Shown here: positions 1,413-35,337 of the stretch, piece after piece | How the letters are laid out: every line of letters begins with the position of its first letter | How positions within the stretch are numbered: position 1 is the stretch's first letter | From: Fragilaria crotonensis | Taxonomy: Eukaryota > Bacillariophyta > Fragilariophyceae > Fragilariales > Fragilariaceae | Direction: 5' to 3' | Length of the DNA: 42,199 bases | Assembly (NCBI GenBank): GCA_022925895.1 | Contig: JAKSYS010000553.1 | Span: forward strand, 1 to 42,199 | Position numbers and translations under genes: made by a program | Notes under the pieces: generated by a model | Databases searched by the model: none | The model's input: only the letters and a program-made list of their open reading frames with translations | Told to the model about the DNA's origin: nothing

Positions 1413-4039
1413 TTAGTGATTGAAACACTCCATGAGGAGATACATGCATATGACCAGCGGCAACATTGGCAGTGCCTGAGAATGGAGACATCGCGATCCC
1501 CCTGTCCAGGTGGGTACAGCATAGCCTGCGTTGTTGATTGCAGCCATTTGATGCATCATACGATCATGCAAAGGACCCTGTGCCGAATTCGACACATCCG
1601 CGAGGTTGGGATTAAATGATGACGACTTGAAATGCAAGGGCACTTTACTGGGAAGCTCTCCACCCCAATCAAAACCAACTTCGTTAAGCCTACGAACTCG
1701 TTCCTCCCAGATTGCCGAGCGTTTTGAACCGGATTTACGATTTGATTGAATGAGCCTTTCTTGTTGTCGTTGTTGACATGTCCATTCATGTAGCTCTTTC
1801 ATCTCCTTTGGGACGCAGAACGTATTGTTGCGGATCTTGAAGGCTAGGAGCTGACCAAACATCTCTTCCCAGCTGCGCTTGGGAGGTATCAATGCTTCGC
1901 GACGAGCACCATCCACACCGAATGGAAATGAGACTTCGTCAAGTTTCTTGATCCGAGACTTTGTGAGCAAAGATGGAACTCCGCTCACAAACTTTTTGTA
2001 TTCCAATTTCTGAGTTTCAACCCAGTGCTTCAAATCGTCTTCCCCGTCAGGAATATTGAACGACGAGTTTTCTATGTAGAAAGCAAGAAGGTCGCCGTAG
2101 TAGTCATCCCACCCCTTGCTCGGGGTGTCTGCCGCCGTCCAAACAAACCCAAGCGCCGTCAAATCACGAATTTGGGCTTCAGTGATCGAGCAACTTTTCC
2201 CCCACTTCATTCTAGTATGTTGCACTCGTTGTTCGTCACACCACTCCCGAAGGGCCTTCTTCTTGCGCTGCTTGATGACGTTAACTTGTCCATACTTTGA
2301 CTTATATCTTTGCAGCTCCGCAAAGAACTCATCCCAGGATTTTTCCATTAACTTCATCGCCTCGATTTTGCGTTCTTTTGAAACCTCGAACTCGAAACCA
2401 GCAGCTGCGAGGATTCGACTCTTTTCCTCACTGATACAGATTCAAGAAAATATTAGACTTGCTTACACTGCCAGACTCATCGAACACAAATTTTAACTTA
2501 CGTCATTTGTGACTTCCTGCCCTCCTTCATCAATTTGTACTGACGCTTCTGCGTTTGAACCCAGTTGCTCAACTTTTGGTTCGCGGCATAGGCAGCAGGG
2601 ACGATGCAATGCCCGTGGGATCTCTTGAACTCCATGAGCTCGCTGAAGCGGGCTCCGAATTTACTTTCTCGCAAAGAAAAATCAAGTTCTAGTTCCTTGA
2701 GCAAAGCGAGCTGTTCGGGTGAGAGGCCGCTATCACCATCACCTTCCCGGTATTTTTTGAGGTAGCCGCGCATTTGTTTGATCCAGTCAAAGAGAGGTTT
2801 GTCGGTTTTTTCATCAACTCGGGTGTGGCCATGTTTGTCTTTGAACGCTTTGGCGTCATTGTAACAATCAGTCCATGACGATTCAGCTGAGCCAGCACGT
2901 AGGGACCATTCGAAGCCGATCGAATCCAGCAATTTGATCCTCTCTTCTGTTATTTCTCCGGCCTTCTCTTTGTTTCCAGCTTTGAAATTCTTGTACTGAC
3001 TACGTTGGCGCTTAACCCACACACCCAACGAATCGTACTTGACCTTGCCGCCTTCTTCCCCCTCTTCGACTTCCTCTTCTTCCACAGCATCTGCATCTTC
3101 TTTACCAAGTTTCTTCTGAGATCTCCCTGAGCAGTATGGGACACGGCAGTGGCCGTGCTCTTCTTTGAATCGCTTGAGATCCTCAAAGCGATTGCTCCAA
3201 TGCTGCCGAAATGGTTCCCACTCAATGTTGATTTTTTCCAAGGCTAGAATCTTATATGGCTCCAAACGCTCTGGATCGTCAGCATCTCGGCGATAATCCT
3301 TGCGTTGCTGGACCAGCCAAGGGCCGAGGCGCGCTACAATTGGATCTTTGTCCTTGCCATCTTTCCTCCAAGGCACTCGCAAGTGGCCATTGCGATTGCG
3401 AAAGTCGATCAGATGAAAATACATTTGATTCCAAGTTGTGTTTTCTTCAAGCAATTCGTCGACAAGCTCTTCAGCGGTAGCTAGAACCGTTCGTTCAACG
3501 CTGGCTAGCTTAGCGTTGTTGGCGCTGAGTTGATCATTAATTGTTTTCAGCTGCGCCTCCAGATCCCATATCGACTGGCATAGAGCTCTACGTTTGGAGA
3601 TAACTTCATCCATTTGCCTGCGAGCTCGTGATAATGACTCAACTGGGACGGTCTTGCGCTGCTTTGCAGGCGGCTTGCGTGTATCATCGTCGTCGTCTTC
3701 TGAGTAAGTGTCGTCTTCGAATCCTTTCCTCTTGTTTCCCGAAGGAGTCGATTGCTGTTCGGCAACATCAGCGAGCTCTCTCAGTACATTCCGTGACGTT
3801 GAAGGCTTGTGCTGCTCAACAAGCTCCTGCAGGCGATGTTGCAAAATCGGATCGTCATCATCTGGCAACCCAGCGCCGGTTGCCCACGCTGCACCGTCGG
3901 TCGGAAAATTCTGTGCAATGTAACCCTGCTGCGATGTTGCATCGAAGTTCGCGGCTGGGAAAGATTCATAGAGATTTCCTTCCGAATGCTCCGTTTCTTG
4001 TCCATTCGCAGCCAAATGATCTTGACGTGGTGGAAACAT
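1413..4039 (-). CDS. Protein with seven tandem helicase-associated (HA) repeats, two exons
   Basis: Exon 1 is 4039-2502 and exon 2 is 2430-1413. The intron (2501-2431, 71 bases, GTAAGT...CAG) is fixed because splicing restores an HA repeat across the junction. The product is 851 residues. The N-terminal 130 residues are acidic and low in complexity, with KRKGFEDD and KPPAKQRK as likely nuclear signals. A coiled coil covers about 137-198. Seven HA-type units follow, starting near residues 203, 281, 389, 461, 545, 620 and 700. Each has a pattern like W...(F/Y)..L..FK..(H/N)GH..VP...L..W...QR..Y and ends in ..L..(I/L)GF.W. Repeats 1-4 keep the GHxxVP core, while 5-7 are more diverged. No helicase core is present, so this is a stand-alone HA protein. 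The fold suits nucleic-acid binding, but the function is unknown. The start at 4039 is the first ATG in the frame. Confidence 0.85.
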
Positions 4040-4473
4040 CTTCGCAGTACGGGAGTACTCGGACTAGCTGTTATCAAAGATGCCGGAAACTGTTTTAGTC
4101 AGTGTGATGTGATAGATTTTCCTGGAATAAAGGACAGCGCCACATCGTGACCATCAGATATCACGGCGTTACTTCAGCGACGCAACGCATGATGTCCAGC
4201 GAGCGTTGTACGCAAGCGCGTTAGGATTTCGTTTCGTACTTTTGTCCACATTGCAGCTGTATATGAATAGAATAAGTATGCAGACCATACGGAGTAACTG
4301 TAGAAGGCATTACCGGTACAGGTTGCAGGGTAGCAGTACGCAGGTCGCAGGGTGCCATCTCTATGCATAACAGCTTCGGCAACAATCCTCTACTCCCGTA
4401 CATGTACATCTCCTATACCGTACACGTACATTCCCCACAGTACATACTGTCCGAATACCAGAATGTCATCTGC
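4040..4473. promoter_or_regulatory. Upstream region of the HA-repeat gene, truncated by the LINE insertion
   Basis: No gene is seen. The stretch contains several GTACATGTAC and GTACACGTAC palindromes near 4397-4430. The LINE inserted about 450 bases upstream of the HA gene's ATG, so whatever promoter the gene uses must lie here or inside the element. Confidence 0.4.
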
Positions 4474-4489
4474 TGTCGCATGTACTCCA
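4474..4489. repeat. LINE target-site duplication, left copy
   Basis: The 16 bases TGTCGCATGTACTCCA recur exactly at 13558-13573. Bases flanking the repeat differ on both sides, as expected for a target-site duplication. This copy abuts the 3' end of the element, which lies on the minus strand. Confidence 0.85.
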
Positions 4490-4627
4490 AAAAAAAACCC
4501 CACCTCTATTTTACGTACTGCCGCGTTGTCCGTGGTATATAGACAATCGACCCATACGGTGGAACCTATGCCGTGGTATACAGCTAGACCCCACGACCAC
4601 CGTTCGTACTCACAATTGGTGACTGAT

Positions 4628-7600
4628 TTAAGTGCCGGTCCAGTACTGCCGTAGGGATCGCATCCCTGAGATTGCTAATTTCCGTGCCCTGTTGTAACTA
4701 GCGCGAAGCACTGGTTCGTGGATTGCTAACCATGCTTTTAAATGCCAAGTGGGCTTCATCTCATGATCTCGTATATCTGACATCAACAGGTCCCGTGCGG
4801 AAGGTTCGTAATGATTCCGTAGCGCATACAACTCTCTCAATGTTCGCTGTGCGTTCTGCCGCTCGATGAGTGCTGTTTGCTGCGTGGTGGCACCATGGAG
4901 GGCATGATTTCGACATTCCCATAACAGGTACCATTGGTCCCAAAGACAACTGATAATTGCGACTTGCCATGCCAATCCTGTGCGACCTTTCTTCCGATTA
5001 TAATCTGGACGAGACACATAGTAGGCGTCTTGGACATCGCTCCAACCCCACGTAAACCTGCCCAAAAACAGATGCTTCCACCCAATTTTATTTTGTTGAT
5101 GTATCATTTGACAGAGGTGTACGTCGTCGTAAGGCGATTGATCCAGATTGTAATCGTCGGGATTCGGACACTCCAGCCACCCTCGAATTCCTGCGACAAG
5201 TATGTCACGAAGAAGTGGGCGGGTATTCCATTTATCGCACGTAGCCGTGATTGCTTCCAGCATAGACGTTCTCCACGCTTCGCGGCTTGGGTTTTGGCAT
5301 CGAAGGATATGTGTCCAATCTTCATCGCGGTGAGTGCAACTGGGGCATCCTCGTCGACTTGGGTCATTCCGATGCAACTTATGATTGGTGGGCAATATAC
5401 CGTGGACCAATTTGATATAATGGTCACGCTGTTTCATCCGCTTTTTAAGGCTTGTACCATGTGCCGTCCAGTTTATGTTCCGCATTTCTGTGCCCGACCA
5501 GCGCTGTCGTAACTGAATGTACTCCAATAGTGGCTTGTATGTTGCTTGATGACGAATCGCCTTTTTATAATTGGAAGTGATGCTGCCTTGCGCGGTGACG
5601 AGGTGGACGCCCGCTCCTTCTGTTAAATGTGCGATGGGTCGGATCGCGCCATGATCGCGCTGATAAATATTTGCCAGTTTATCCGCATCGACATTCAATT
5701 GAGCCAATAAACTTAACTGCCGGTATGCTATTCTTCGATCCTGATGACCGCGGACGTGTTGCAATTGTAATCCAGGCATTTCCTTGAGGAGCCGTCGGAT
5801 GTTGACAAGTAAATCCCAATCAGGGATAAAAGGATCAAGTGGGACTTGCGTTGGGTCGTGCGCCAGGTGTGCTGCATCCACTGCGTCCCCCATATCGTGT
5901 CGTGTCACACCGCGGATTGTATCAATTAAACTCAAACTGTCGGTTGCCAGAATCCCCTGCCATGGTTCGTACTGGTACGTGAACTCGGCCAATCGCTTTA
6001 GGAAACATAGGATCGCGAGCATTCCGTATGCTTCGGACCTGTATGATGTGGGAGTTGCCCCTGGTGCAGGACCCATGCCTTCTGCAGCCCGTTCGCCAAC
6101 GTCATTGCTTAAGATCCATCCATATGCCCCCATCTGTTTCAGCCACACGGACCCATCGCTAACACCGCGTAGGCCGTGAGTGAATGCCTCGCTGATGGTG
6201 AAGGCATCTGTTGAACAATCCATATGCGATAATAATTCTGCTTCCCAAGGTGCCAGAGTTTGTACGTATTGATCGAACGTTGCCGGATGGGCCACTTTGG
6301 GAATGAATAGGCTTGAAGCACGGGATACTCGCCAAGTAGTAGGGGATTCAGGAAAAACATCGACTGGTAAGCTCTCACCGGCTATATCTTGCCATGAACA
6401 AAGATTGTTGGTATAATGGTAAACGTCATCGCCATCCGCACTCAACCGACATTGCATAAATTGTTCATGAACGCGAACCCAAAGTCTGCGATGGAAACGA
6501 TACGCTTGGTGTCGTTGTCGTTGCTTCTTGATAGGTTGTATCCATGGACCCAAGGGTTGACGTAATCGGCCTCGTTCATCGCTCCATAACAAGTTTGCTT
6601 TTCGCCAGAGTTTCCATTCTGTATCCGATGGTCGTTCTTGATTGATATGGACGCCATGGGTGACGCTACTCTCTGCGGAAATTTGCCCTGCCAGTTTAGC
6701 GGGATCTAAGGCGTCGCCGGTTATATTCGTAAGATCAGAGAGAGTCTGCGCCTGGAGATATAAACGACAATAATTTATTCGTCGAATCTCGGCAGCGGTG
6801 AATTTTCCCGACGATAGTATTCCGTCCATGATGTATGTATCATGACACCGTTGAAGAGGAGGAATTCCTGGGTTGTCAAGCTGCATAGATGCATCGATAG
6901 ATGCCAAAAAGTCACGTAACGACGCGAGCCACTTCGATTCGAGATGTGGTAGTGGTGGATGAACTCGCTCCAAGATCGAAAAGGACGTACCCACTTGAAT
7001 CTGGAACCATCCGACCGCGATGCGTAATAATTTGCCTGCCATCGAATGAAGTCTCCAATTTTTAATGAATAGACCAATCTGTCCGACTCCTTGTTCTACA
7101 TAAAGATGCCGAAAATTTGCTCCCCCCAATTCGAGTGGGCCATATAAGATTTCGCGTTTGGTATTTCGATTGAAACCGCATCTCGGGACGATAATCGACA
7201 TGGCTCGCCTCTGGACGCTTTCTAACCGCTGCCGAGAAATGGAAGAGCATGAGAGTGGATAAGTCACACTCGGGAGGTAACAAGCATAGTAGAATGTCCA
7301 GGTTTCAAGCTTTGTCAACGGGCACTTCCAAAGAAAGGTTGTGAGGTCGTCGCTTTTTGATTTCAGTCGCTTGTACTGTTCCGTCTGCGTTCCTGCTGGA
7401 TCCTTATAGTGGCCCAATGTCTTGTGTGCTTGATATGGTGAGAGCAACTGAAGATCGTGTAATATCCCGGTTGCTGGATCGTGTACTTTCAAGAACTGCT
7501 GGTGTACATCCGTCTTCGGTGCAAGAACAGGGGCTCCCTGCATGGAGAATAACCACTGCAAAACATGGCATGAGCACTTCGAGAGTTCTAGGGCGCCACC

Positions 7601-9541
7601 ACTGACGTGGAGGAGATTACTCCAGTGCTGTGCATTCGTCTGTGCATGTTGTAGAACACCAGACAATGTCGCTTCGGATCCATCTGAAAGAAACGTATTC
7701 GTTTGTCCGTTACAATCGTCGACAAAACCCACCATGCCGATGGAAACTGACGTTGAGTTATCTGGTGAAACATATGTTGCAGGTTGGGCAATCTCGTCAT
7801 AACTATCGAAAAGGCAGCTTGATAAAAAGCACCAGATTGCCGGGGAGTTTGCGCTTCCTTGGCCCGTACCATAAATTGGCATATCAGCAGAATGAGAGTA
7901 TCCTGTCGGCGCCAGGCCCAACTCGGTTCGAATTCTGTACTCCGCTTGCTCCAAAGTCTCCGCGTTTGTTTGAGTAACTTGGAAAGATACTCCAAATTTG
8001 CGGCTGACTAACATACCAATACTTGGGATGATCCGATCGTAACATGCCGTTGCGTCATAGTTCGTTAAAACGACAGGTTTCCTTGTAGCTCGAGATATCT
8101 CACACTGTAATTCTTCCATAAAAACCGGGTCAGTCGCATTGCGTCGTGGGCGCGACCCAAATTGTCCTTCGTTCAAAACGGCCAGGGCCTCTGCTTGGTA
8201 CATCGCTATTCGCCACTTTATCCCTAGAGCGAGGTTAAAATCCGCCTCATATATATGTATGACTCGTGTCCGATGCAAGCGCACATTGTCCTCGTCTTTG
8301 AAAAGAATAGTGTTGGCGATTATTTGCCATCGCCGATATGAATATCCTCTCTCCAGTGCATAATTTAACAAGGCCAGATGCACGGCCCGCAGTTCGTTTT
8401 GCATTCGATTCAACTCATCTCGATTGTCTCTGAATTCTTGGGAAAGCTCTTCATCCGATGCATCGGAAGAATAAGAGTGACGTGCAATCAGGGCTTTATA
8501 GTGGCCTAGATGCATACCCGACGGTGACGTTGTGGTTGATTCTGCCCACACCCGAAGTTTCGCGCAAAACTCATCATCTGAGATAGTAGGAAACGACGGG
8601 GTCTCCGCTATTTCATGTACATGATGAAGATGTCGCAATAACAATTGCACATTGTCATCTAAGACATGGGAAGGGGAATATGTTCCGTGGAGAATTTCGT
8701 CGCCTATTTTGCCGTCACCTTTGAAACCTAGTTCTTCTGCCAGGGGTGGAATTGTAAACGGTGTGCCATGAGCTTGTCCGAAATGTTTCCGATTCCGTTC
8801 TTGGAGAAGACGCAGTATTTCTGTAGGAACTTCCACTTGTGTCCACTCCGTGCACGTTTTCGGATCGTCAAGCGGATGTAATGGGATCTCAATCCGTGTT
8901 ACTCCTTGTCGAGTCTTTTGCCCTCGGACGTGTTTCAATTTCCGAAACAACTCCTTTAAATCCTCAGCTTTCTTTAAGCGTCGAAGGATCTTTGCTTTCG
9001 TCTTATCAGCGTTGTGTTGGGAGGCTTCTAAGTCTTCGATTTTCTTGCGCCGCTCCTGATCCCTGTGTTGATAACTGTCTGCAACTATCTCTTTGACTCT
9101 TGTTTCAGCTGCTCTGAGGGCTCTCGAACACGTGACTTTTGAAGGTGGTAATTCAAAAGAGACATCTAATTCGGCGATTGCTCTTGTCAACTTATCCGAA
9201 TTATCGTACCCTGTTTTGAGGCTAGAGAGATGCTTTTTCAGGATCGAGACCACTTTGCGGGCTTGTGCGAGTTCCACTGACCAGGCCGGTTCCCCTACGC
9301 GACGTGTCTTTGCTTCTGCTGCTAGACTTGCTGATAACACGTCGGAATCCAATCGCTCCGCGTATTCATGCCTATTGCCCGGAAATGATAGTTGAAGAAC
9401 ACGACGAGAAGCGTTGTGATGGTCAAATAAAATTCGGTGCTTCTCTCGAATATACTCGGTGACTTGATGAACATTGTTGGAGAGCAGACCTCGCTGTGCC
9501 CCCGCGTTGCAAGTTGTTGTGTCCCGGAGCCAAACAACATA
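4628..9541 (-). CDS. LINE reverse transcriptase with RNase H and C-terminal zinc motif
   Basis: The frame is open from just after a TGA at 9544-9542 to TAA at 4628. Meaningful protein starts near 9500, joined to the endonuclease by a -1 shift. Residues are counted from the Leu at 9352. A basic coiled-coil linker covers about 80-140. The RT domain shows a GQFGSRP block, YDATACYDRI (metal-binding Asp about 433), GTGQGSANSPAIW and GFVDDCN (catalytic Asp pair about 545). An RNase H domain starts near 1064, with SDGSVW, RSEAYG, ATDSLS and a later NVDADKLA supplying a D-E-D-D set, plus VRGHQD. A C-x2-C...H-x4-C motif (CPSCTHRDEDWTHILRC) follows. No internal stop is present over about 1,570 codons, so the enzyme is probably functional if the frame junction is bridged. 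Confidence 0.88.
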   Translation of the reverse strand, partial: YVVWLRDTTTCNAGAQRGLLSNNVHQVTEYIREKHRILFDHHNASRRVLQLSFPGNRHEYAERLDSDVLSASLAAEAKTRRVGEPAWSVELAQARKVVSILKKHLSSLKTGYDNSDKLTRAIAELDVSFELPPSKVTCSRALRAAETRVKEIVADSYQHRDQERRKKIEDLEASQHNADKTKAKILRRLKKAEDLKELFRKLKHVRGQKTRQGVTRIEIPLHPLDDPKTCTEWTQVEVPTEILRLLQERNRKHFGQAHGTPFTIPPLAEELGFKGDGKIGDEILHGTYSPSHVLDDNVQLLLRHLHHVHEIAETPSFPTISDDEFCAKLRVWAESTTTSPSGMHLGHYKALIARHSYSSDASDEELSQEFRDNRDELNRMQNELRAVHLALLNYALERGYSYRRWQIIANTILFKDEDNVRLHRTRVIHIYEADFNLALGIKWRIAMYQAEALAVLNEGQFGSRPRRNATDPVFMEELQCEISRATRKPVVLTNYDATACYDRIIPSIGMLVSRKFGVSFQVTQTNAETLEQAEYRIRTELGLAPTGYSHSADMPIYGTGQGSANSPAIWCFLSSCLFDSYDEIAQPATYVSPDNSTSVSIGMVGFVDDCNGQTNTFLSDGSEATLSGVLQHAQTNAQHWSNLLHVSGGALELSKCSCHVLQWLFSMQGAPVLAPKTDVHQQFLKVHDPATGILHDLQLLSPYQAHKTLGHYKDPAGTQTEQYKRLKSKSDDLTTFLWKCPLTKLETWTFYYACYLPSVTYPLSCSSISRQRLESVQRRAMSIIVPRCGFNRNTKREILYGPLELGGANFRHLYVEQGVGQIGLFIKNWRLHSMAGKLLRIAVGWFQIQVGTSFSILERVHPPLPHLESKWLASLRDFLASIDASMQLDNPGIPPLQRCHDTYIMDGILSSGKFTAAEIRRINYCRLYLQAQTLSDLTNITGDALDPAKLAGQISAESSVTHGVHINQERPSDTEWKLWRKANLLWSDERGRLRQPLGPWIQPIKKQRQRHQAYRFHRRLWVRVHEQFMQCRLSADGDDVYHYTNNLCSWQDIAGESLPVDVFPESPTTWRVSRASSLFIPKVAHPATFDQYVQTLAPWEAELLSHMDCSTDAFTISEAFTHGLRGVSDGSVWLKQMGAYGWILSNDVGERAAEGMGPAPGATPTSYRSEAYGMLAILCFLKRLAEFTYQYEPWQGILATDSLSLIDTIRGVTRHDMGDAVDAAHLAHDPTQVPLDPFIPDWDLLVNIRRLLKEMPGLQLQHVRGHQDRRIAYRQLSLLAQLNVDADKLANIYQRDHGAIRPIAHLTEGAGVHLVTAQGSITSNYKKAIRHQATYKPLLEYIQLRQRWSGTEMRNINWTAHGTSLKKRMKQRDHYIKLVHGILPTNHKLHRNDPSRRGCPSCTHRDEDWTHILRCQNPSREAWRTSMLEAITATCDKWNTRPLLRDILVAGIRGWLECPNPDDYNLDQSPYDDVHLCQMIHQQNKIGWKHLFLGRFTWGWSDVQDAYYVSRPDYNRKKGRTGLAWQVAIISCLWDQWYLLWECRNHALHGATTQQTALIERQNAQRTLRELYALRNHYEPSARDLLMSDIRDHEMKPTWHLKAWLAIHEPVLRASYNRARKLAISGMRSLRQYWTGT

Positions 9542-10563
9542 TCAGTGTCGAAATCGAAGAAATATCCACGATGGTCTGAGATGAAGTGGGCATTAAATTC
9601 TTCGTATCCGGCCGAAATTAACGCATCGCTTGCGAGAGGGCTTGCTAACGCGTAATCCAAACGCTTGGATCCTCTTGCATAAGTCGCCGGAGGAGAGGAT
9701 GAATGACGGCTTGCCATAAGGTCGATCAGTCCTAACGTACCCGCAATCTTTACCATTCCCTCGGGATCTGTACCAAGGTGCTCGTTAAAATCGCCAACCA
9801 CTATCAAAAGAGTTCCTTCCTGATTGTATGATTGAAGTGCCGCTAGTAAATCACGCCGAAAAGCTGTCCGAGGATTCTTTACTGTATCTTGTGCGAGACA
9901 TAGCAAGCTCGTTTGTTGAGCTGCGACCGTGATCTTTCCCTGTTGCGAAGACTTATCGATTGGTTGGTACACTGAGAAGAGAACAACGCGTCGATCGCCT
10001 CGTCCAGTGAACTCTTGAATGACCCATCGTCCCCATTTGTCGCGTGATTGTTTTACTACTCGTCCCATTAAACTACCGACTGTCATCATCATTGTTCCTC
10101 CTGGTTTGTATGATGTTTCGACAGTGATTGGTGTAGTTCCCATTGTAATGCAATGGCGGTCCCAATGCTGACGTGCCGTATCGAATATCGAACTTCGAAT
10201 TTTGAACTGAGACGTGTCAAGGTTGTGTTCTTGAGCGCAAAAAATATCGGCTTGTATTTCTTTTACCGATCGACAAATGTCCTCAAATGTTCTGCCTCGT
10301 CGGTCAAGAGAAATGCCGTTGACATTTATCGAGTACAACCGAGTAATTGTTGGATCTTTGGGACCCATTGGATCGCCCCATGGTGAGTTGATTCTGAGAT
10401 TTTTGAGTGTCGGACGGGATTGACGGTGAATACCTATTGGGTCGCTTGGTTCTGATCCTGAAAACAATTGTCGCCATTTTAATTTTGCTTCTTCCAATAA
10501 CGTTGTTGGGGAGGGTGACGCAGATACCGCCTGTGGCTGTACTTCGTCCGAAAGTGAACTCAT
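9322..10563 (-). CDS. LINE endonuclease (APE/exonuclease-endonuclease-phosphatase fold)
   Basis: The frame is 413 residues. An endonuclease domain spans about 70-330. Visible catalytic-type motifs are SINVNGI near the start (usually L-x-x-N-x-x-G), FCAQEHNLD (metal-binding Glu), YQPIDKSS, VVGDFNEHLG (the Asp/Asn pair), RLDYALAS and the terminal SDHRGYF (catalytic His). Its role would be to nick the target for target-primed reverse transcription. The last 60 or so residues after ATRGHSE look like out-of-frame translation, because the minus-one frame there carries a sensible linker into the RT. So endonuclease and RT were probably one polypeptide, separated by one missing G in the GGGGG run at 9499-9503 or joined by ribosomal frameshifting. 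Confidence 0.85.
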   Translation of the reverse strand: MSSLSDEVQPQAVSASPSPTTLLEEAKLKWRQLFSGSEPSDPIGIHRQSRPTLKNLRINSPWGDPMGPKDPTITRLYSINVNGISLDRRGRTFEDICRSVKEIQADIFCAQEHNLDTSQFKIRSSIFDTARQHWDRHCITMGTTPITVETSYKPGGTMMMTVGSLMGRVVKQSRDKWGRWVIQEFTGRGDRRVVLFSVYQPIDKSSQQGKITVAAQQTSLLCLAQDTVKNPRTAFRRDLLAALQSYNQEGTLLIVVGDFNEHLGTDPEGMVKIAGTLGLIDLMASRHSSSPPATYARGSKRLDYALASPLASDALISAGYEEFNAHFISDHRGYFFDFDTDMLFGSGTQQLATRGHSEVCSPTMFIKSPSIFERSTEFYLTITTLLVVFFNYHFRAIGMNTRSDWIPTCYQQV

Positions 10564-13463
10564 GATGCTGACTCCCCGCCTTGAGAGCTTTTGTCGTTGT
10601 ATCGACTCTCAAGGTCGGTGGCGATATCGTCCAACTTTGTTGTTGCGTGTTGCGGGAGATCGGTGGGGTCATCGACAGGTAGTGGTGTATTCACTGCCTG
10701 AGATAAAGGGGCCAAATTATCTGGTTCTTGATGCTGTGATGCAGCTACATGGTCCTCCGCTGGATCTTTTTCTTTGCAACCTGTCCGATATTTCTTTTTA
10801 ATGGGTGACGAGAACGTAACCCTGTCCAGCTGACGGTTTGGAGGTTCAGGAGAGGTGGAATGTTGCATGTCATCGTCATCCTCTGCGCGATCCTCTCTAA
10901 TTGTCATGGGTTCGCTGCCATTCGTCCGACCATTCTGTATGTGTGTCTGGGCTATCATGTCCATGAGTGCCGATATCTTATCGCTGAGTTTGTTCACTGT
11001 GCCCCCAACTCCGGCTTGTGTTTCCATAACATTCATTAGGTTCCCTTGCATCACGTCGAACCTGTGATCTAAATCATCGAATCTTGTAAATTGTCTCTCC
11101 ATGCGTTCTAGTCGCTCAGTGTTAATACGGTCCTTCCGATCAAACTCCTTTTGTTGACGCTGGATTCGAGCGTCGATTTCTTGAAATCGAGCCGTGGACG
11201 TTGACATGGAGGACAACCTGGAATTGATGGAATGATTCGAATCAGTGGACGCCTCCGTTTGAACTGTAGACCGCAGCCCGTATTGATCTCGAAGCGAGTC
11301 CAATGGAGTAGGAGGCATTGTTGGCTTTGACGTTCTGTCCGTATCCACGGATGGACGCGAGTCTCCATGTTGGGAAGACACAGACTTTGTTGATGGGTTA
11401 TGTTCCTCGGATCCTCTAGGTGTTCTTCGGAGAGACTCCGATCTTGAGTCGGATTCGTCGGATGTCTCAACACTTCCGGCTGTTCTTGTTTGTTTCCACG
11501 ATTCAGTTGAAGAGATTAATTTGTCGATAAAAGACAAATTAGCATTTACTTTAGAGACCACGTGTATCACTGTTGGAGGAGGTCCTATAGCGTCTCTGAA
11601 TCGTTCCTCTCTAATCGAAAAAGGAAACACTCGACGGCGGTACTCTTCAAACTCTTTGCGAACCGTGTCTTCGTGCTGAGGAGCCATCAGGAGAAATGAT
11701 TTTTGGTCGTATCCGCCATTAACGACGTCGACATGCGCTGATTCGTGTCCCTCCGCAGATGTAATAGATGCTGCCCAGTCCCTTGTAGTTCTCTCCATTT
11801 TTGTGCCATCCGGGAAAAACTCAGTCCTTACGGTATCCAAATTGTTAATCATTGGTGACAATTGAATGTATCGGAGCGATTTGATATAGGAATCATGCTT
11901 CTCAAACAATTTCATAGCTTCTGCCATGGTCATCTTCGCAAACGCAAATCTGGGAATATAAACGCCGGTACCCGATCCGTCCAAAGCAGAGAGTAGGGTC
12001 TGGCTCAAGGAATGGACATGATTTTTCCCGCATTGGACCACGAGATGATTAATGTCTTGGTCGAAAGGCGTGCGGCGATGAAGAACAATATTAAAGAAGG
12101 GAGTCGTGTCAGGAAGCTTGCTGCGTAAACTCTGCAGAAACCGGGTGCGATGAGTGGTACGAGGAGCTTTGAGGAGGATATATCCTGAGATAACATCTTC
12201 TCCGCTTGTGCTCTTGGAATTTGAAAACGAAGCCGTAACGTTATTCCGCTTAAAGGCTTCCTGAACTCTGGGCTGATTCTTCCAGGAAAAGGACGGTTTC
12301 GTAGTAAAACCAAAACGAATAGGAACGATGATTTGAGATTGGGAAGGTAGAACAGACAGGGAGGGAGCGATGTACGATCGCAGTTCCTCTTGTGACATTT
12401 TTGAAATGGAGTTGCAATGTTCCGTTCCTTCATCTGTCCATCTGTATAGGAGGCCATCTTCATCTCGAAAAATATCATTAAGAAGCGAGTGGATTTCAGC
12501 TGACAAGGCACTCGACTTCTGGGATAAGGCAAGAGCGACCACGTCTGCAGTCGTTTTCCAACGGAGTGAGATACGAATTGTACCATCGTTAATTGGGATG
12601 TTCAGGTTTGGAATAAGTGCAGACATCTTGCCATCCGTAGACGATGTGAATGAATTAGAGTCCTCCTTTCTTTCATTCGCGCGTGTGTGACTAATGGATG
12701 GCATGTTGGTTGCCTGCAAGTTTGACTTAATGGGCGGTCGGTTCGGAGTCAACTGGATCGGTGGGTTTTTGTGAACTGTCTTTTCGGGAATTTGAAGCTC
12801 GACTTCCATTGGTTCGTCATCTTGTTCCTCTGGAATTGGGGGTGTGGTGAATGCAAGTTGCTGTTTGAAGAGATCTGTAGTCTTGAGGACTATAGGCGTC
12901 TTCTTCAACGTTGAGGTTGCTTTCCTAGTCTGAGTACGACGTTTGGCCTTTGCCGAACTGATGACCTTATTCCAGGAATAAATGTTGGACGCACGCTTTG
13001 CCCAGTCCTCGAAACCAATAGTAGTTGTATCCACCGGGAGAACCTTGTCGGTGTGAACGGATAAATAAGGTAGCGAGAACGTATTGGCCCAAACATGAAG
13101 TTTCTGTGGAACATCAATCTTGCGATCGATATGGTACATGTATCGGTACCATACAACCAGATGAAGTTGGAGTTGATCGCTGTCGAAGTTGTTCCAGATT
13201 GGTTCGAACTGGGTGAAGGGCATGATATTGCGTCCGAGAGTAGCAAACCTATGCCAGACAGTCGGAGTGGTATCGTTGCGTTGGACGGTTTCCTCATAGA
13301 TTCGTTTGACGCGTTCGTTCTGCGTTTCAGACAAATGTTCTGGAGGAATGTCGATATCGGGAAAATCCTTCCAATCTTTCAATAAGAAACCAAAGGAATC
13401 GTCAGTGTCAGGTGGAAGAGACATAAGGAGAACTGGGGACGGGGGCTCCGCTGCTTCGGTCAT
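10560..13463 (-). CDS. LINE ORF1 protein (coiled-coil, nucleocapsid-like role inferred)
   Basis: The product is 967 residues. I chose ATG 13463 because the frame is open further upstream (to 13754) but only by reading through the target-site duplication into host flank. The N-terminal half is a compact, charged region. The middle has proline/serine-rich linkers. A long coiled coil (EIDARIQRQQKEFDRKDRIN onward, including LERMERQFTRFDDLDHRFDV) lies near the C-terminal quarter. No zinc knuckle or RRM is obvious to me. Position and coiled coil suggest an RNA-binding chaperone that multimerises, as for ORF1 proteins of other LINEs. The stop codon shares bases with the next start (ATGA), a layout known from termination-reinitiation. 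Confidence 0.8.
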   Translation of the reverse strand: MTEAAEPPSPVLLMSLPPDTDDSFGFLLKDWKDFPDIDIPPEHLSETQNERVKRIYEETVQRNDTTPTVWHRFATLGRNIMPFTQFEPIWNNFDSDQLQLHLVVWYRYMYHIDRKIDVPQKLHVWANTFSLPYLSVHTDKVLPVDTTTIGFEDWAKRASNIYSWNKVISSAKAKRRTQTRKATSTLKKTPIVLKTTDLFKQQLAFTTPPIPEEQDDEPMEVELQIPEKTVHKNPPIQLTPNRPPIKSNLQATNMPSISHTRANERKEDSNSFTSSTDGKMSALIPNLNIPINDGTIRISLRWKTTADVVALALSQKSSALSAEIHSLLNDIFRDEDGLLYRWTDEGTEHCNSISKMSQEELRSYIAPSLSVLPSQSQIIVPIRFGFTTKPSFSWKNQPRVQEAFKRNNVTASFSNSKSTSGEDVISGYILLKAPRTTHRTRFLQSLRSKLPDTTPFFNIVLHRRTPFDQDINHLVVQCGKNHVHSLSQTLLSALDGSGTGVYIPRFAFAKMTMAEAMKLFEKHDSYIKSLRYIQLSPMINNLDTVRTEFFPDGTKMERTTRDWAASITSAEGHESAHVDVVNGGYDQKSFLLMAPQHEDTVRKEFEEYRRRVFPFSIREERFRDAIGPPPTVIHVVSKVNANLSFIDKLISSTESWKQTRTAGSVETSDESDSRSESLRRTPRGSEEHNPSTKSVSSQHGDSRPSVDTDRTSKPTMPPTPLDSLRDQYGLRSTVQTEASTDSNHSINSRLSSMSTSTARFQEIDARIQRQQKEFDRKDRINTERLERMERQFTRFDDLDHRFDVMQGNLMNVMETQAGVGGTVNKLSDKISALMDMIAQTHIQNGRTNGSEPMTIREDRAEDDDDMQHSTSPEPPNRQLDRVTFSSPIKKKYRTGCKEKDPAEDHVAASQHQEPDNLAPLSQAVNTPLPVDDPTDLPQHATTKLDDIATDLESRYNDKSSQGGESAS

Positions 13464-13557
13464 GGTGGTGACGCGCACGAAGGCCTCGGTGGTTTTACTA
13501 CGGTAAAGCGGTTGACGGACGGACTGGTGTTTCAAATTCTTAATACTAGAAATTGTG

Positions 13558-13573
13558 TGTCGCATGTACTCCA
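13558..13573. repeat. LINE target-site duplication, right copy
   Basis: An exact match to 4474-4489. It abuts the 5' end of the element, whose first sense bases run CACAATTTC. Confidence 0.85.
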
Positions 13574-14017
13574 GTCTCCAGTAATAGGGAGTACTGTAGT
13601 AGATTACACGAATGGTATGGCATACATGCATGGTTTCGCTAGAGTACTTCTCTACTGGAGTACTACAACCATGTACGAGGTTTTGGTGTAGTCCGGAGTT
13701 GGGCGTGCGGATTGGGATCTGTGGATTGTGTTTGACCTTGACACGACCGAACACTCATTCCTCACAAAATACTTGCCCATGTCGCGAAGCAAATCAATGC
13801 CTGACTATCAATGGAAGTGACTGAAGATTAATCGCGCTGCACACTCATGATATCAAGCTGAAGGCTAATGCGTAAGTCCAAACGCATGTTGCTGATACGT
13901 GATACCTGAGGCTACAGACAATTTCGCTTGCAAGGATAGGGCAATACAAGGCATGCTAGTTTCGAAAAGATAATTTAATGTCATGAAGCGAGACGCATAA
14001 CCATCATCAGAGACTAA
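13574..14017. other. Intergenic stretch between LINE and crotonase gene
   Basis: No coding support. It contains several GTACT-type motifs (for example near 13587 and 13640-13668) and would hold the 3' end of the crotonase transcript. Confidence 0.4.
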
Positions 14018-14917
14018 TTACTTCCGACTGTACTCATCGAACGTTGGATCCACGCGGCCCACCACAGCATCCAGCCCAGCTCCCCAATCTCCTCGATTGT
14101 AGCAGACAGCTTGTGCATAGGCTTCACGCAGCAAGGTTGACTCTAAACCTTCGTCTTGGCGATGTCGCAAGGTTTGTATCATTGAGCGAATAGACACCGG
14201 GTGCTGGGCCGCAACTTCTTCAGCAAGTTTGTGTGCTTCGTCCTTAACTTTGTCAGCCTCGACCAACCGGTTCACCAAACCCAATTCGAAGGCTTCTTCA
14301 CCGGAGAGGAACCTACCGGTCAGTAGAATTTCATTTACTTTAGCCGACGATCCCAGCGATTGTTGCAGTAGATGTGAAACGCCCATGCCAGTGTGGATAC
14401 CCAATTTGCTAAAGGTGAAGCCGAACTTGCGAGGTCCAGGCGAGGTGACTCGCATATCACATGCCAAGGCCAAGCCAACGCCTGCACCAACAGCTGGTCC
14501 TTGGATTGCGGCGACGACAGGCACCGGTAAGCTTCGAATGCATAGGAAGGATTTGTAGAAACTCAACATGGCATCGGAATTCTTGTGCACAGGATACTTC
14601 CCAAGGGATTGAAGCCAATCAAAGTTTCCTCCAGCAGAAAATGCGAAATCTCCAGAACTCTGAAGCACCATGGCATTGATATTCTTGGAGCCTTCTGTGA
14701 GGTCCGCGTGAATATGTCGGATCGCTGCGGAGAATTCTCTCCCCATCTCCACGGTCAAGGCGTTGTAGGTTTTAGGGGATTCCAACGTTATCGTTCCAAC
14801 TTTTTTCACCTCATCAAGTTCCCAGGAGACCAGCGAACTCGTGGAGAGAAGCCTATTGAGGGTCCGCGGCCTCCAAAGTGCGGTTGATGTTAATTGGCGT
14901 GGGCGCATCATGGTCAT
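14018..14917 (-). CDS. Crotonase-fold (enoyl-CoA hydratase/isomerase family) protein, probably mitochondrial
   Basis: The product is 299 residues in a single exon. The first 25-30 residues are rich in Arg, Ser, Thr and Leu with no acids (RPRQLTSTALWRPRTLNRLL), as in a mitochondrial transit peptide. The crotonase core follows: VGTITLESPKTYNALT, the first oxyanion-hole strand FSAGGNFDWL, and the second GPAVGAGVGLALACD. The two glutamates that catalyse hydration in classical enoyl-CoA hydratases (GGCE and the PE of FAQPE) align with Val and Lys here (GAGVG, FTFSKLGI). So the protein probably binds acyl-CoA but is not an ordinary hydratase; isomerase, thioesterase or another crotonase activity is possible. 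It is divergent from the gene starting at 15300. Confidence 0.85.
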   Translation of the reverse strand: MTMMRPRQLTSTALWRPRTLNRLLSTSSLVSWELDEVKKVGTITLESPKTYNALTVEMGREFSAAIRHIHADLTEGSKNINAMVLQSSGDFAFSAGGNFDWLQSLGKYPVHKNSDAMLSFYKSFLCIRSLPVPVVAAIQGPAVGAGVGLALACDMRVTSPGPRKFGFTFSKLGIHTGMGVSHLLQQSLGSSAKVNEILLTGRFLSGEEAFELGLVNRLVEADKVKDEAHKLAEEVAAQHPVSIRSMIQTLRHRQDEGLESTLLREAYAQAVCYNRGDWGAGLDAVVGRVDPTFDEYSRK

Positions 14918-26818: not shown

Positions 26819-28548
26819 CTACGACTCATTTTCGTCATCCGAGTCCCATGCTGCCTCCACAGGTACCTTTGCTACCGCTGTTTCCAATGCATTGTTGTCA
26901 GCACCAGTACCGTCGTGCTGTTCTTGCCGCTCATCGCCACGGGCATTCTTCAATCCTGCCCGTGTCCTGCAGAATGCCAGCAGCTCACGTTCCATGTCTT
27001 TTGACTGCGGGCATGCCCTGTTCTCTTTAACCATTATGCGCAGTGCATTGAACTGTCTTATTCCGTCATCGCTCCACCCACCATACTTGCAGGTTCCTTT
27101 TTCTTTTCAGTGTACTTTCCCGCTTGTCTCTTTGTTTTCTTCGTCGTCATATTCTGCCCATCATCTGCTTCCGTTGGGTTGTCTTTGTCAACCAACTCCG
27201 TGCCGGTTTTCCATTTTTCCAAATAGTTGTCAATCAGCAACAATCAAACGCTTCGTCACTTGTTGTTACCATTTTCGAATTGTCGCTGTGCCGCGCCTCC
27301 GATACAAGCATTGTTTTCTTCGCGATTCTCCACGCATTTGCACCACATACACACTCCAAGAAGTTATTGAAGAAGAAGAAGAAGGCCCTTTTCTCCCTGT
27401 CTGTTGTTGCTGTCCTAAGCACAGAATTCTTCAAACGTGAAGAAGTCTTCGCCGCGTTTTTGAAATCCTTATTGATTGCGCCCCGAACAATTCTGAGACC
27501 AGCTTGTTCACACGTACTCCTTTTCTGGTTCAACGCTGTATTGAAACATTTCTCGTATGTCAACTGAAAAAGGAAATGATTTTTTGGCTTTTCGATTTCA
27601 AGCACCTTTCGAAACGCCCTTCGGAACATAACTGGACTGTTAACAAACTTACATCGACGGAACAACTCGTTTTTGACGTATATCACAATTCGATTTCTCA
27701 CGTGCTTCTCTTCTCGTGGCGGCGCATTGGACTCATTGTCATCGCATACATCGTGCTGAACATGCGTAGACGACACCTTCTTCTTCGCCGTTGGAGTATC
27801 ATTGTCATCTGGAGGATCCTCCGCGCCTTCCTGGGCACAGTGGTTCAACTCCTGACCAAGACGTCGTCTTGCATCCATTGCTGTTTTCCCGACATCTCTA
27901 ACAAACTGATCCATTCTTTGAACAGAGTCGTCATCATCTGACATGTCATGTGTCACCACGTTGTTGTCATCACCCGCATTACTTTTCCCCTCATCCTCCC
28001 TGTCATCATCTGATTCGGACTCTTCATCGTCAACCTCTTCAAACTCTTCATCGTCAACCTCTTCAACTGAGTAAGAGGAGTCATCAATTTCCTCAGGAGC
28101 GCTCCTTCTGCTCACCACCACCACCTTTTTTGGTGCCACTTTCCTCCTCTTCTTCTTACCACGAGGAGGAACAACACGTCGTTTGCGTCCCTTTGCAGTG
28201 ATCTGCACTGGGTCTGGGTTAACTGCTGTCGCGATCTGCACTGGTGGGTCCGGGTTAACTGCAGTCGTCGATGCTTTAACAGATTTAGCTGCAGATTTAG
28301 CCGCAGATTTGGCAGATTTAGCCGCAGATTTAGCCGCAGATTTAGCCGCTGCTTTCTTAGCAGCTGCTTTAGCAGCTGCTTTAGCAGCTTTAGCAGCTTC
28401 AGCCTTTTGCTGTTCCGCCATCTCATTCCTCTTGGCTCTTGTTGTCGGTGTTTCAAGTTCGGCGTTCTTCGTCTTGTTCTTGGTCGCGCGTGGAGGCGTG
28501 GTCAGTACTAGCCACTGAAGGTTGCTTAGTTGGAGATGTTTTCGGCAT
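26819..28548 (-). pseudogene. Lys/Ala-repeat nuclear-type protein with C-terminal GWS motif, several frameshifts
   Basis: Reading from ATG 28548 (MPKTSPTKQPSV), a +1 change near 28510-28540 leads into a basic, Ala/Lys repeat region (AAKSAAKSAAKSAKSAAKSA). An acidic tract (EEVDDEEFEEVDDEE) and a folded-looking region (RNRIVIYVKNELFRRCKFVN and onward) follow. Around 27240 and again near 27080 the sensible frame shifts by -1, ending in YGGWSDDGIRQFNALRIMVK...DSDDENES and TAG at 26819. The GWS-(D/E)-(D/E)-G-x-x-x-(F/Y)-N-x-L motif is one I know from many diatom hypothetical proteins, often near transposons. An alternative start at 28586 keeps the main frame without the first shift. The histone-H1-like tail and acidic tract suggest a chromatin-associated protein. 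Function unknown. Confidence 0.55.
28276..28405 (-). repeat. Short in-gene tandem repeat encoding Ala-Ala-Lys/Ser units
   Basis: Repeated 9- and 12-base units (GCAGATTTAGCC type, read on the plus strand) encode alternating AAK and SAAK blocks. Such a tract is prone to replication slippage. Confidence 0.7.
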
Positions 28549-28586
28549 GAGGACGAATGAATCAAAATGTAAGAAGAAGCAAGCAA

Positions 28587-29560
28587 GGGTTAGAATAGCG
28601 GTCTCAGTGGTTGTATCAATTTGCAGCAAGTATGAGACGACTTGTAATTTTGGGTGATGAATTTGGGATTTTGAATCTCCCACCAGTTTTCAAAATTGTA
28701 TGAGTTGTCCCTGTTTGTTCATTTTCTACCTGTACATGACTTATACGAAAAAATGTATTGCTTACTACTTATATTCACAAAACATGTGCAAGTCGTTTAT
28801 TTTTTTGAATGCACTTACATGTTCACTATTTAGCTTCTGACATTTTCCGTTTATATACTTGTATGAATATGTGTGACTATAAAATTATATATGACATGAT
28901 GATCACTGCAGTCTTGTTTTTGCGTTGACGGACTCGCAATCTTGTTTCACTACCAGTAGTTTGTCGTACTCGAGTATGCAACACCAGTGTTCTTATACCG
29001 GCAGCTAGTTCTTGGTAATCATTCAAGGGTGTCGTGGTGCGTATGCATACATGATGTAAATTGCATATATATGTACATCCATGTATTGAGCAAGCATTAA
29101 ATTTTGTGTTCGTACTGATTTGTTGCTACATACTGGTGCAGTATAGTGTACCTGTACCAGTATGTAGTCCTGTCCTGGGAAACGAATGTATCATCTATAC
29201 ATGAAAATGCTATGTACTGTAATTACTTTTCATTTAACTAAATACATAATTTTAATATAATCGATGGATGTGTATATAACGTAATTCAATGTTATATACA
29301 TCAATAACATATATATGCTGCATTTAGAGGTCTTGGAAAGAAGTCCCAGGTGCAAAATGCCCTACATTCGCCATAGTACTTACAGTACGTCGATTTTGCT
29401 GCTTTTAGTACCTTTGGTGAATGGTGACACCAAAAAGCACAATCTGATGACAGTACTTTCATGAAGTACTCTTGTTTTGGTTGTTTGTTGCAACATCACC
29501 ACGTCGCCGTCGGATAGTTCTCGCTGACTTTTCAACAAATAGATAGTCCACGCCAGGATT
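28587..29560. other. AT-rich non-coding stretch
   Basis: Nearly 1 kb without coding support. AT-rich words such as CATATATATG dominate 29040-29320. GTAC motifs occur at 28965-28975 and 29150-29165. I see no RNA gene. Confidence 0.4.
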
Positions 29561-30272
29561 GCGTGTTGATTGTCTTTGTTGGAGAGCGCTCGCGACAACC
29601 ATCCTCTGTGGCTGGTTGTTGTGAGGTTGGAACAGGCATTGCGCGGCCTTCACCTGCCAGGAAGCAGGAGAGAGCCCGATGTCGCCCGATCGACGTGGCG
29701 TTGATGCTGTGGAAAGGTGGTCGTGGACGGGAGGGATGGGAACGGAAGGTTGGGACGAAGAAGGCTGGGAAGAAGAAGGTTGCGCAGAAGAAGGTTACAA
29801 AGAAGAAGGTCGCGGAGACCGGGAATAAGACTTCCCGAGCGTGACATCCGTGAGAAACCTTGGGAACTCGCCACGTGTTCCGGGAGTCGGTGATGTGGCG
29901 GACGGGGAAGTCCCTCCCCACTCACCGCGATGAGAGGCGGACTCGCCCGACTCATGTGCGCATGATGTCGTTGTTGTCCATGGCCGTTGTTCCGGAGGCG
30001 GAGTGCGTTCCGGCAAAGGTTCAGGACGAGCGGGGTTGGGTGCAACGAATTCTTGTGTCAGACTCCGATCAGCGTCGTTGCCGAAGCTTTCGGATGTAAG
30101 CCGTTCCGACTGCGTTCGGCTGCCGACATGTTCCCGGAGTCTGGACTCCAGTCGGAGTTCCTCAACGAGTTCTACGTGATGGATGTGGTCCTCAACCGGG
30201 CTCCTTCGCCGGCCGCGGTGTCAAACGGTTGTGGGAAGGCGGGGGAGTGCGGCGGTGTCCAGTCTTCTGACG
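29561..30272. other. GC-rich, ORF-dense patch of unknown origin
   Basis: Base composition rises sharply against the AT-rich DNA on both sides. Long frames occur on both strands, which GC-rich DNA produces by chance. The best plus-strand candidate (29563-29844) ends in a Lys-rich repeat (TKKAGKKKVAQKKVTKKK). No known domain in any frame. It could be a separate inserted fragment or part of a decayed element next to the Plavaka remnant. Confidence 0.3.
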
Positions 30273-32724: not shown

Positions 32725-32930
32725 ACACTTGTATTTGGATTCGTAATCCAAGTACCATGTAGTTTGTACGGTAGAACCGTAGTACTCACAGAATACTAGG
32801 TACGCGCATCTAGTGGCATTCGATATTCAAGGAGAACGTGTGTTCCGCAAAACCACCGTCCAGCGGTCGGAAAGTCCGAGATTGAGAATCGAGAAGGGTA
32901 GACGCAATCCCCCCTGAGATCGGATCCGAT

Positions 32931-32955
32931 TAGGTTTCACCAATTTGACGTCAGC
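32931..32955 (+). repeat. Left terminal inverted repeat
   Basis: Begins TAGGTTTCACC and ends GACGTCAGC. It contains the palindrome TGACGTCA at 32946-32953, a cAMP/CO2-responsive-element core. It is exactly complementary to 35247-35271. Confidence 0.85.
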
Positions 32956-33310: not shown

Positions 33311-34063
33311 GACTATTTGAAGATCGAATTTCGATCACCAAATAGTTGCCATTGTACTGTACTGGTGATACTCGTACTGTGACAACTATTTGAAGATCGA
33401 ATTTCGATCACCAAATAGTCGCCATTGTACTGTACTGGTGATACTAGTACTGTGACGACTATTTGAAGATCAAATTTTGATCACCAAAGTCGCCATTGTA
33501 CTGTACTGATGTTACTCATACTGTGCGACTATTTGAAGATCAATTTGATCACCAAATAGTCGCCATTATACTGTACTAGTGTTACTCGTACTGTGACGAC
33601 TATTTGAAGATCAATTTCGATCACCAAATAGTCGCCATTATACTGTACTAAGTGATACTCGTACTGTGACGACTATTTGAAGATCAATTTCGATCACAAA
33701 TAGTCGCCATTATGCTGTACTGGTGATACTCGTACTGTGATGACTATTTGGTCAATTCGATCACCAAATAGTCGCCATTATACTGTACTGGTGATACTCA
33801 TTACTGTGACGACTATTTGAAGATCAATTTCGATCACCGAATAGTCGCCATTGTACTATACTAGTGTTACTCGTACTGTGACGACTATTTGAAGATCAAT
33901 TTCGATCGCAAATAGTCGCCATTATGCTGTACTGGTGTTACTTGTACTGTATGACTATTTGAAGATCAAATTTTGATCACCAAATAGTCGCCATTTATAC
34001 TATACTAGTGTTACTTATACTGTGTGACTATTTGAAGATCAATTTTGATCACCAAATAGTCCC
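33311..34063. repeat. Hairpin-forming minisatellite, 11 units of about 71 bases
   Basis: Units start at about 33311, 33384, 33457, 33527, 33598, 33671, 33742, 33811, 33883, 33953 and 34026. Each has an inverted pair, GACTATTTGAAGATC...GATCACCAAATAGTC, followed by a spacer of the type GCCATTATACTGTACT-GGTGATACTCGTACTGTG. Every unit can fold into a hairpin about 36 bases long. An outlying half-diverged inverted copy lies at 33238-33275. Confidence 0.92.
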
Positions 34064-34192
34064 ATCCTACTATTGATGTCGAACAAGAACGAAAGTCTAA
34101 GTCAACATTGTTATTAATTCTAAATGTACTACTTTTAAAAACTCCATGATGAGACATATGTTTTTGCACACCTTGCCAACAGGACACTGAAA

Positions 34193-35246: not shown

Positions 35247-35271
35247 GCTGACGTCAAATTGGTGAAACCTA
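35247..35271 (-). repeat. Right terminal inverted repeat
   Basis: The exact reverse complement of 32931-32955, with TGACGTCA at 35249-35256. Confidence 0.85.
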
Positions 35272-35337
35272 ATCGGACCCGATTTTTTCTGGTAGGAATC
35301 TAACCGAGTGATTCCTGTTTCACGGAACATCAAAAGC

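Follow-up and report, generated by a model that had tools for sequence, protein, structure and literature searches.

A full-length APE-type LINE with an oligo-T 3′ end, a conserved 3′ hairpin and a probably exchanged ORF1 in the diatom Fragilaria crotonensis

The DNA analysed (the window; 42,199 nt) is the whole of contig C507 in the Fragilaria crotonensis genome assembly and contains a LINE bordered on both sides by the same 16-mer (Table 1). The element reads on the minus strand, from its 5′-end at position 13557 to its 3′-end at 4490, and the genes neighbouring the element carry eukaryotic-type domains. At 1413-4039, two adjacent ORFs on the minus strand contain repeats of the helicase-associated (HA) domain. 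An ORF at 37366-38958 has Plant_tran and DDE_Tnp_4 domains and likely encodes what we take to be a PIF/Harbinger-type transposase. Elsewhere on the contig there is a tandem array (33311-34065) in which a 73-bp unit, itself containing inverted repeats, is present ~10.6 times, and a pair of inverted 37-bp sequences (32919-32955 and 35247-35283), 97% complementary and 2.3 kb apart, that are perhaps the ends of a DNA transposon.

Table 1. Positions of the LINE and its component features in the window.
Feature	Position	Strand	Details
Target-site duplication, copy at 5′-end	13558..13573	.	Exact 16-mer; 13558 is possibly the first base of the element
5′-UTR, 94 nt, starting CACAATTTCTAGTATTAAGAATTTG	13464..13557	-	25-base pattern and 15 relatives read
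Full-length LINE, 9,068 bp	4490..13557	-	Borders common to other copies; flanks match only themselves
ORF1, 967 aa	10560..13463	-	Stop overlaps the next ATG (ATGA)
ORF1/ORF2 junction, homology break to the C294 lineage	10558..10563	-	DNA identity falls from 90% to 30%
APE-type endonuclease frame, 413 aa as read	9322..10563	-	PF03372, E 1.5e-10; motif strings located
APE-RT linker, both frames open, 220 nt	9322..9541	-	Frame change inside; frame reading and relatives
RT open frame	4628..9541	-	RVT_1 (PF00078); conserved motifs by string search
FVDD box in RT frame	7726-7715	-	String search, conserved
RNase H-like D/E/D/H/D motifs	between 6160 and 5681	-	String search, conserved
C-x2-C-x8-H-x4-C (CCHC-type finger)	5347-5297	-	String search, conserved
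3′-UTR hairpin 1, looser	4559..4594	-	72-76% of cells paired
3′-UTR hairpin 2, 15 pairs	4514..4558	-	97.2% of cells paired; two-sided changes in 8 pairs
T-run at the 3′-end, T8 on the sense strand and A8 on the plus strand	4490..4497	-	Directly abuts the duplication
Target-site duplication, copy at 3′-end	4474..4489	.	Exact 16-mer; two in the assembly

The sequence-only reading of this DNA had proposed that the 16-bp duplication marks both ends of the element. The 16-mer, TGTCGCATGTACTCCA, is present in two exact copies with different flanks and has no further match within the window, where 0.02 matches with up to two mismatches would be expected by chance. It is also not a common genomic repeat, as a search of the whole 62.1-Mb assembly returned two forward and no reverse occurrences. 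When the flanks (13558-14700 and 3300-4489) were used to search the assembly, only self-matches were obtained, and a second copy of neither flank was found. A query with the first 600 nt of the element matched 19 places. Sixteen of these, the window among them, have 77-100% identity and extend to the 5′ border or the base before it; the remaining three are short inner matches. Since this query ended at the border, the flanks of the copies were read separately. The 15 other copies have 14 distinct flanks, none resembling that of the window; the sequence starting at the border is CACAATTT in 13 of these 15 relatives and ACAATTT in two. The 3′ border is similarly common to many other copies. Shared element edges, differing flanks and flanks that match only themselves establish that the borders are real. 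The two copies on contigs C209 and C111 (L065 and L066) share one 5′ flank and those on C258 and C427 (L034 and L035) also share one flank; each pair consists of alleles, haplotigs or duplications.

The 5′ border is ambiguous by one base, because an A is present directly ahead of CACAATTT in 14 of the 16 copies (window included) and, in the copy on contig C294, this A falls outside that copy's own exact 16-bp duplication. The element may, therefore, start at 13558 instead of 13557. A 25-base pattern from the 5′-end has 13 matches in the assembly, window included, versus 121 places for the 3′ motif described below, and is specific to the ORF1 type of this element. No direct repeat of 20 nt or longer, as expected for LTRs, was found joining the two ends of the element.

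The start assigned to ORF1 from the sequence, at 13463, is supported by relatives that align from residue 1, with MTETAEPPSP in the C294 copy versus MTEAAEPPSP in the window. ORF1 has no Pfam match above the cut-off. PF00078 (RVT_1) matches 9 of 13 aligned members of the family, and the match in the window copy (E 1.3e-4) is below Pfam's cut-off. The D, E, D, H and D strings located downstream, which we take to be RNase H-like, are aligned in 11 of the 13 members, the 11 that extend that far, and the last of these motifs reads N-V-D/E-A-D across those members; RNase H gave no Pfam match in the window copy or in the aligned members. PDB sequence searches returned only chance-level matches, a PDB profile search with the RT returned no reference RT, and single-sequence fold prediction for part of the RT had a mean pLDDT of 34.4, too low for use. 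No relatives were found when viral contigs, other genome contigs, plasmids and phages were searched. With an endonuclease upstream of the RT and a target-site duplication, and without LTRs, the element is an APE-type LINE and, as both borders are common to other copies and the domain order is present, its initial description as full-length holds.

In sense, the element ends with ...AGGTGGGGTTTTTTTT, followed at once by the duplication. The empty target site, when reconstructed, reads TCCA/GTCTCC and has no A-run, and the T-run must, therefore, have arrived with the element. The 3′ motif is present at 121 places in the assembly (53 + 68), with none for a reversed-pattern control, and AAAAC is at the expected place in 94 of these; the 27 motifs that do not have this exact form are outside the tail readings. 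A pattern for the opposite, A-tailed form has no matches in the assembly. Tails read directly at 36 places (28 + 8), a sample in which L034 and L035 share a flank and some counts include a target A, are 5 to 17 nt long with a median of 8, and 11 are exactly 8; nine were counted for the window copy, eight of which are within the element. The 3′-end of this clade, read in sense, is oligo-T, usually of eight, and not oligo-A; the 3′ poly(A) tail of L1-like, relaxed LINEs is absent from both the window copy and the clade. Eighteen places, for example on contigs C13, C195 and C855, share an identical 3′-end, AAAACCGAATATCTATTTTACGTGCTGCCGC, and constitute a subfamily. The eight of these that were read have flanks that are all different and tails of 7 to 17, and the subfamily is possibly the result of a recent burst.

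Alternatively, the T-run might be absent from the RNA and arise when the RT begins the first strand with untemplated A, or through slippage on a primer-terminal A. The variation in tail length from 5 to 17 would be expected if this were so, but the lengths peak at 8 in both divergent and near-identical 3′-ends, directly adjoining the conserved 3′ motif. Such a peak fits an encoded run, and we consider an origin at the RT unlikely.

The 3′-UTR has two hairpins that were evaluated in an alignment of 28 3′-ends, 26 of which are distinct. Hairpin 1 was drawn from the window's own fold. For hairpin 2, the window copy alone folds identically, and for 8 of the 15 pairs one or more sequences carry changes in both partners. 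For both hairpins together, 87.0% of the cells are paired versus 78.6% in shuffled alignments and 35-46% when the partner is slid, and 57 double-change cells are observed versus 23.3 in the shuffles. The covariation score was reached in none of 500 shuffles, whereas the number of further pair types (40 versus 35.5 shuffled) was reached in 20 of 500. Four of the five measures are, therefore, beyond all 500 shuffles and all five are above the slid versions; the shuffled controls lose the relatedness among the sequences and the slid controls keep it. The single-sequence fold energy of the window 3′-UTR is unexceptional (z -1.11), the support for the hairpins being that of the alignment, and an Rfam search over 4300-13800 returned nothing up to E 0.1. 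A conserved, structured 3′-end is also a feature of stringent-type LINEs, and the location of a hairpin with compensatory changes near the T-run suggests stringent recognition of the 3′-end.

As assembled, ORF2 is interrupted; the APE and RT frames are each open but are out of frame with each other. Of 25 relatives that retain both the end of the APE and the start of the RT, 23 read through in one frame, several with other stops or frame breaks elsewhere, and two (L011 and L022) do not. The closest copy, on contig C508 (L018; 95.5% DNA identity over 3.8 kb), is one that reads through, and its RT has a stop of its own. Four probes (L071-L074) placed where the 5′ halves and APE-RT junctions of the C258 and C427 copies should lie, and two (L069 and L070) at the expected 5′ positions on C508, gave no element match. 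The copies on these three contigs, therefore, look truncated or interrupted there, and those on C258 and C427 are uninformative on the frame. On C508, the RT part (27790-29937, L018) and the 3′ part (from 41866, L036), ~95% identical to the window element, are ~10 kb apart, as if this copy had itself been inserted into or two copies were present.

The frame change in the linker is a mutation or an assembly error, and the window copy, although complete, is probably disabled. It could have been made in trans, or have been intact at insertion and broken later, or the frame change could be an error of assembly. This differs from the initial reading, in which the absence of internal stops from the long frames indicated a possibly active element; the frames are open only singly. 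An intact and possibly active LINE, with APE and RT joined by programmed frameshifting or by translational coupling, is nevertheless conceivable, as both frames are open across the 220-nt overlap, L011 and L022 also fail to read across, and the dN/dS values point to past constraint. For the window versus C508 these are 0.11 for RT and 0.22 for APE and, for parts of the RT, 0.12 versus C427 and 0.11 versus C258; frame change aside, the coding sequence has been under constraint. We regard such an intact element as highly improbable, as 23 of the 25 relatives with both parts, the C508 copy among them, have APE and RT in a single frame and the region 9440-9560 shows no folding beyond that of shuffled sequences (z +1.07), and programmed frameshifting was set aside on these grounds. 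The description of the insertion as young is also not upheld. The closest copies differ from the window copy by 4.5-4.9% at the DNA level, and the perfect 16-bp duplication limits the age only weakly.

The 5′-half of the element has a different set of close relatives from the 3′-half. Over 2.8 kb of 5′-UTR and ORF1, the window is 81.6% identical in DNA to the C294 copy. That copy is flanked by an exact 16-bp duplication of its own, and its 3′-end lacks a T-tail. The encoded proteins are 79% identical for ORF1 versus 24% for APE and 28% for RT; taken together, identity to C294 is in the range of 79-83% for ORF1 and 24-28% for ORF2. In 50-nt bins before 10607, DNA identity to C294 is 20, 46, 68, 68, 56, 76 and 74%, the first of these bins being at the slice edge and the last ~400 nt of ORF1 being patchy. 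Identity is then 90% in 10607-10558 and 30% in 10557-10508, a fall that positions the homology break at the ORF1/ORF2 junction.

Genome searches, in which only the best candidates were scored (47 for ORF1, 42 for C294-type RT and 30 for window-type RT), identified 12 contigs (C294, C347, C80, C77, C173, C349, C157, C128, C664, C523, C261 and C12) on which, among these candidates, an ORF1 relative is located directly upstream of a C294-type RT in the same orientation. Three further contigs with close ORF1 relatives were typed directly; C537 and C87 have a C294-type RT, and RT typing of C160 gave no match. Among the 30 scored loci with a window-type RT, ORF1 adjoins the RT in the window itself (C507) and on C129, and the C508 copy keeps the last part of the swapped ORF1 type. 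The presence of the same junction on C129 and C508 establishes that the hybrid is not an assembly chimera, and the divergence of C129 from the window (67% identity in ORF1, 72% in RT) indicates that the swap is not recent. C129 is the other hybrid with both ends, and inspection of these by eye did not reveal a target duplication. On C92, APE and RT are 67-69% identical to those of the window and ORF1 is only 36% identical over 372 aa; on C680, the 1.4 kb upstream has no significant ORF1 match. As the C92 ORF1 is missing from the list of 47 candidates, absences from that list carry little weight. The simplest reading of these comparisons is that the T-tailed lineage took its 5′-UTR and ORF1 from the C294 lineage. 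That ORF1 has instead evolved slowly and vertically in both lineages, as their remotely related ORF1 proteins (36% for C92) might allow, is barely credible given an ORF1 so much closer to C294 than is ORF2, a C92 copy close in ORF2 but divergent in ORF1, and a break in identity at the ORF junction.

What had been noted from the sequence included neither the T-tail nor the 3′ hairpin nor the ORF1 swap. Jointly, the observations are best explained, with good probability, by a full-length, ORF1-swapped LINE of the APE and stringent types that has RNase H-like motifs downstream of its RT and primes on U-tailed RNA. The transcript would end in ...GGU(~8), typically U8, with no poly(A). ORF2p would bind the 3′ hairpin and nick the target, and first-strand synthesis would then be primed from a 3′-end such as ...TCCA-OH, the terminal A of which would pair with the U-tail. 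In L1 retrotransposition, a T-primer pairs with an A-tail, and the priming envisaged here would be the mirror image. The swap could have resulted from a template switch, or from a 5′-truncated element having inserted behind the ORF1 of another element.

LINEs of the I and Tad1-like groups have APE, RT and RNase H, and the window element has APE, RT and RNase H-like motifs in the same order, a likeness of order and not of a tree; it differs in that its RVT_1 match does not reach the Pfam cut-off and RNase H has no match in Pfam. L1-clade LINEs have APE and RT, a separate ORF1 and duplications of ~15 bp, all features of the window element, but the clade documented here differs from L1 in the T end, the conserved 3′ hairpin and the RNase H-like motifs. 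Among 233 L1 families of flowering plants, the 3′ terminus is (A)n in 224 and without a repeat in 9 (PMC3747384). In the stringent LINEs ZfL2-1, ZfL2-2 and UnaL2, there is a 3′ stem-loop, and the ZfL2 proteins bind tail RNA through the EN-RT region, as described in the part consulted of PMC4176376. The window element resembles these in having a conserved 3′ stem-loop and a region intervening between EN and RT, and differs in its terminal T-run and in an RT with no sequence match to any solved structure; its RNA binding is a prediction.

Several plant SINEs, namely p-SINE1, Au and ZmSINE2, have a T-run 3′-end (PMC3747384). The partners suggested for the p-SINEs and Au are unidentified LINEs able to recognise RNA ending in poly(U), and ZmSINE2, with (T)n, is paired with LINE1-1_ZM; in the sections consulted, Table 3 of that study has no (T)n LINE among plants or green algae. 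These SINEs share the T-run 3′-end with the window element but are short, non-autonomous and from plants. Exchange of a whole ORF1 has been proposed for LINEs of the Jockey superfamily, for example by a 5′-truncated element landing behind the ORF1 of another (PMC4120745, as consulted in part). There, as here, a whole ORF1 has moved between lineages, although the hosts are animals; in the window element, in contrast, the break is placed at the ATGA junction of ORF1 and ORF2 and the 5′-UTR has moved too.

A broader proposal, which we judge about as probable as its opposite, is that this clade copies non-polyadenylated, U-tailed RNA, with the hairpin and U8 being recognised and A-ended primers being used, that it is the kind of partner postulated for poly(T) SINEs, and that part of the clade swapped its 5′-UTR and ORF1 with a distant lineage in the same genome. 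The templates usually attributed to LINEs are RNAs ending in an A-tail or in short repeats. In the parts consulted of the openly accessible literature, that on diatom LINEs included, no description of a T-tailed LINE was found. As far as searched, a T-tail together with a covarying hairpin in a LINE clade is new, and the ORF1 swap is an instance of a known process, with clear-cut limits. A large clade with T-tails of ~8 and a covarying hairpin provides a concrete system in which to ask how an RT starts on a U-tailed RNA, and the question of starting on a poly(U) end has already been raised for the poly(T) SINEs in the sections consulted of PMC3747384. With a clean boundary to the ORF1 module, the interchangeability of ORF1p and promoter between distant ORF2 lineages becomes testable.
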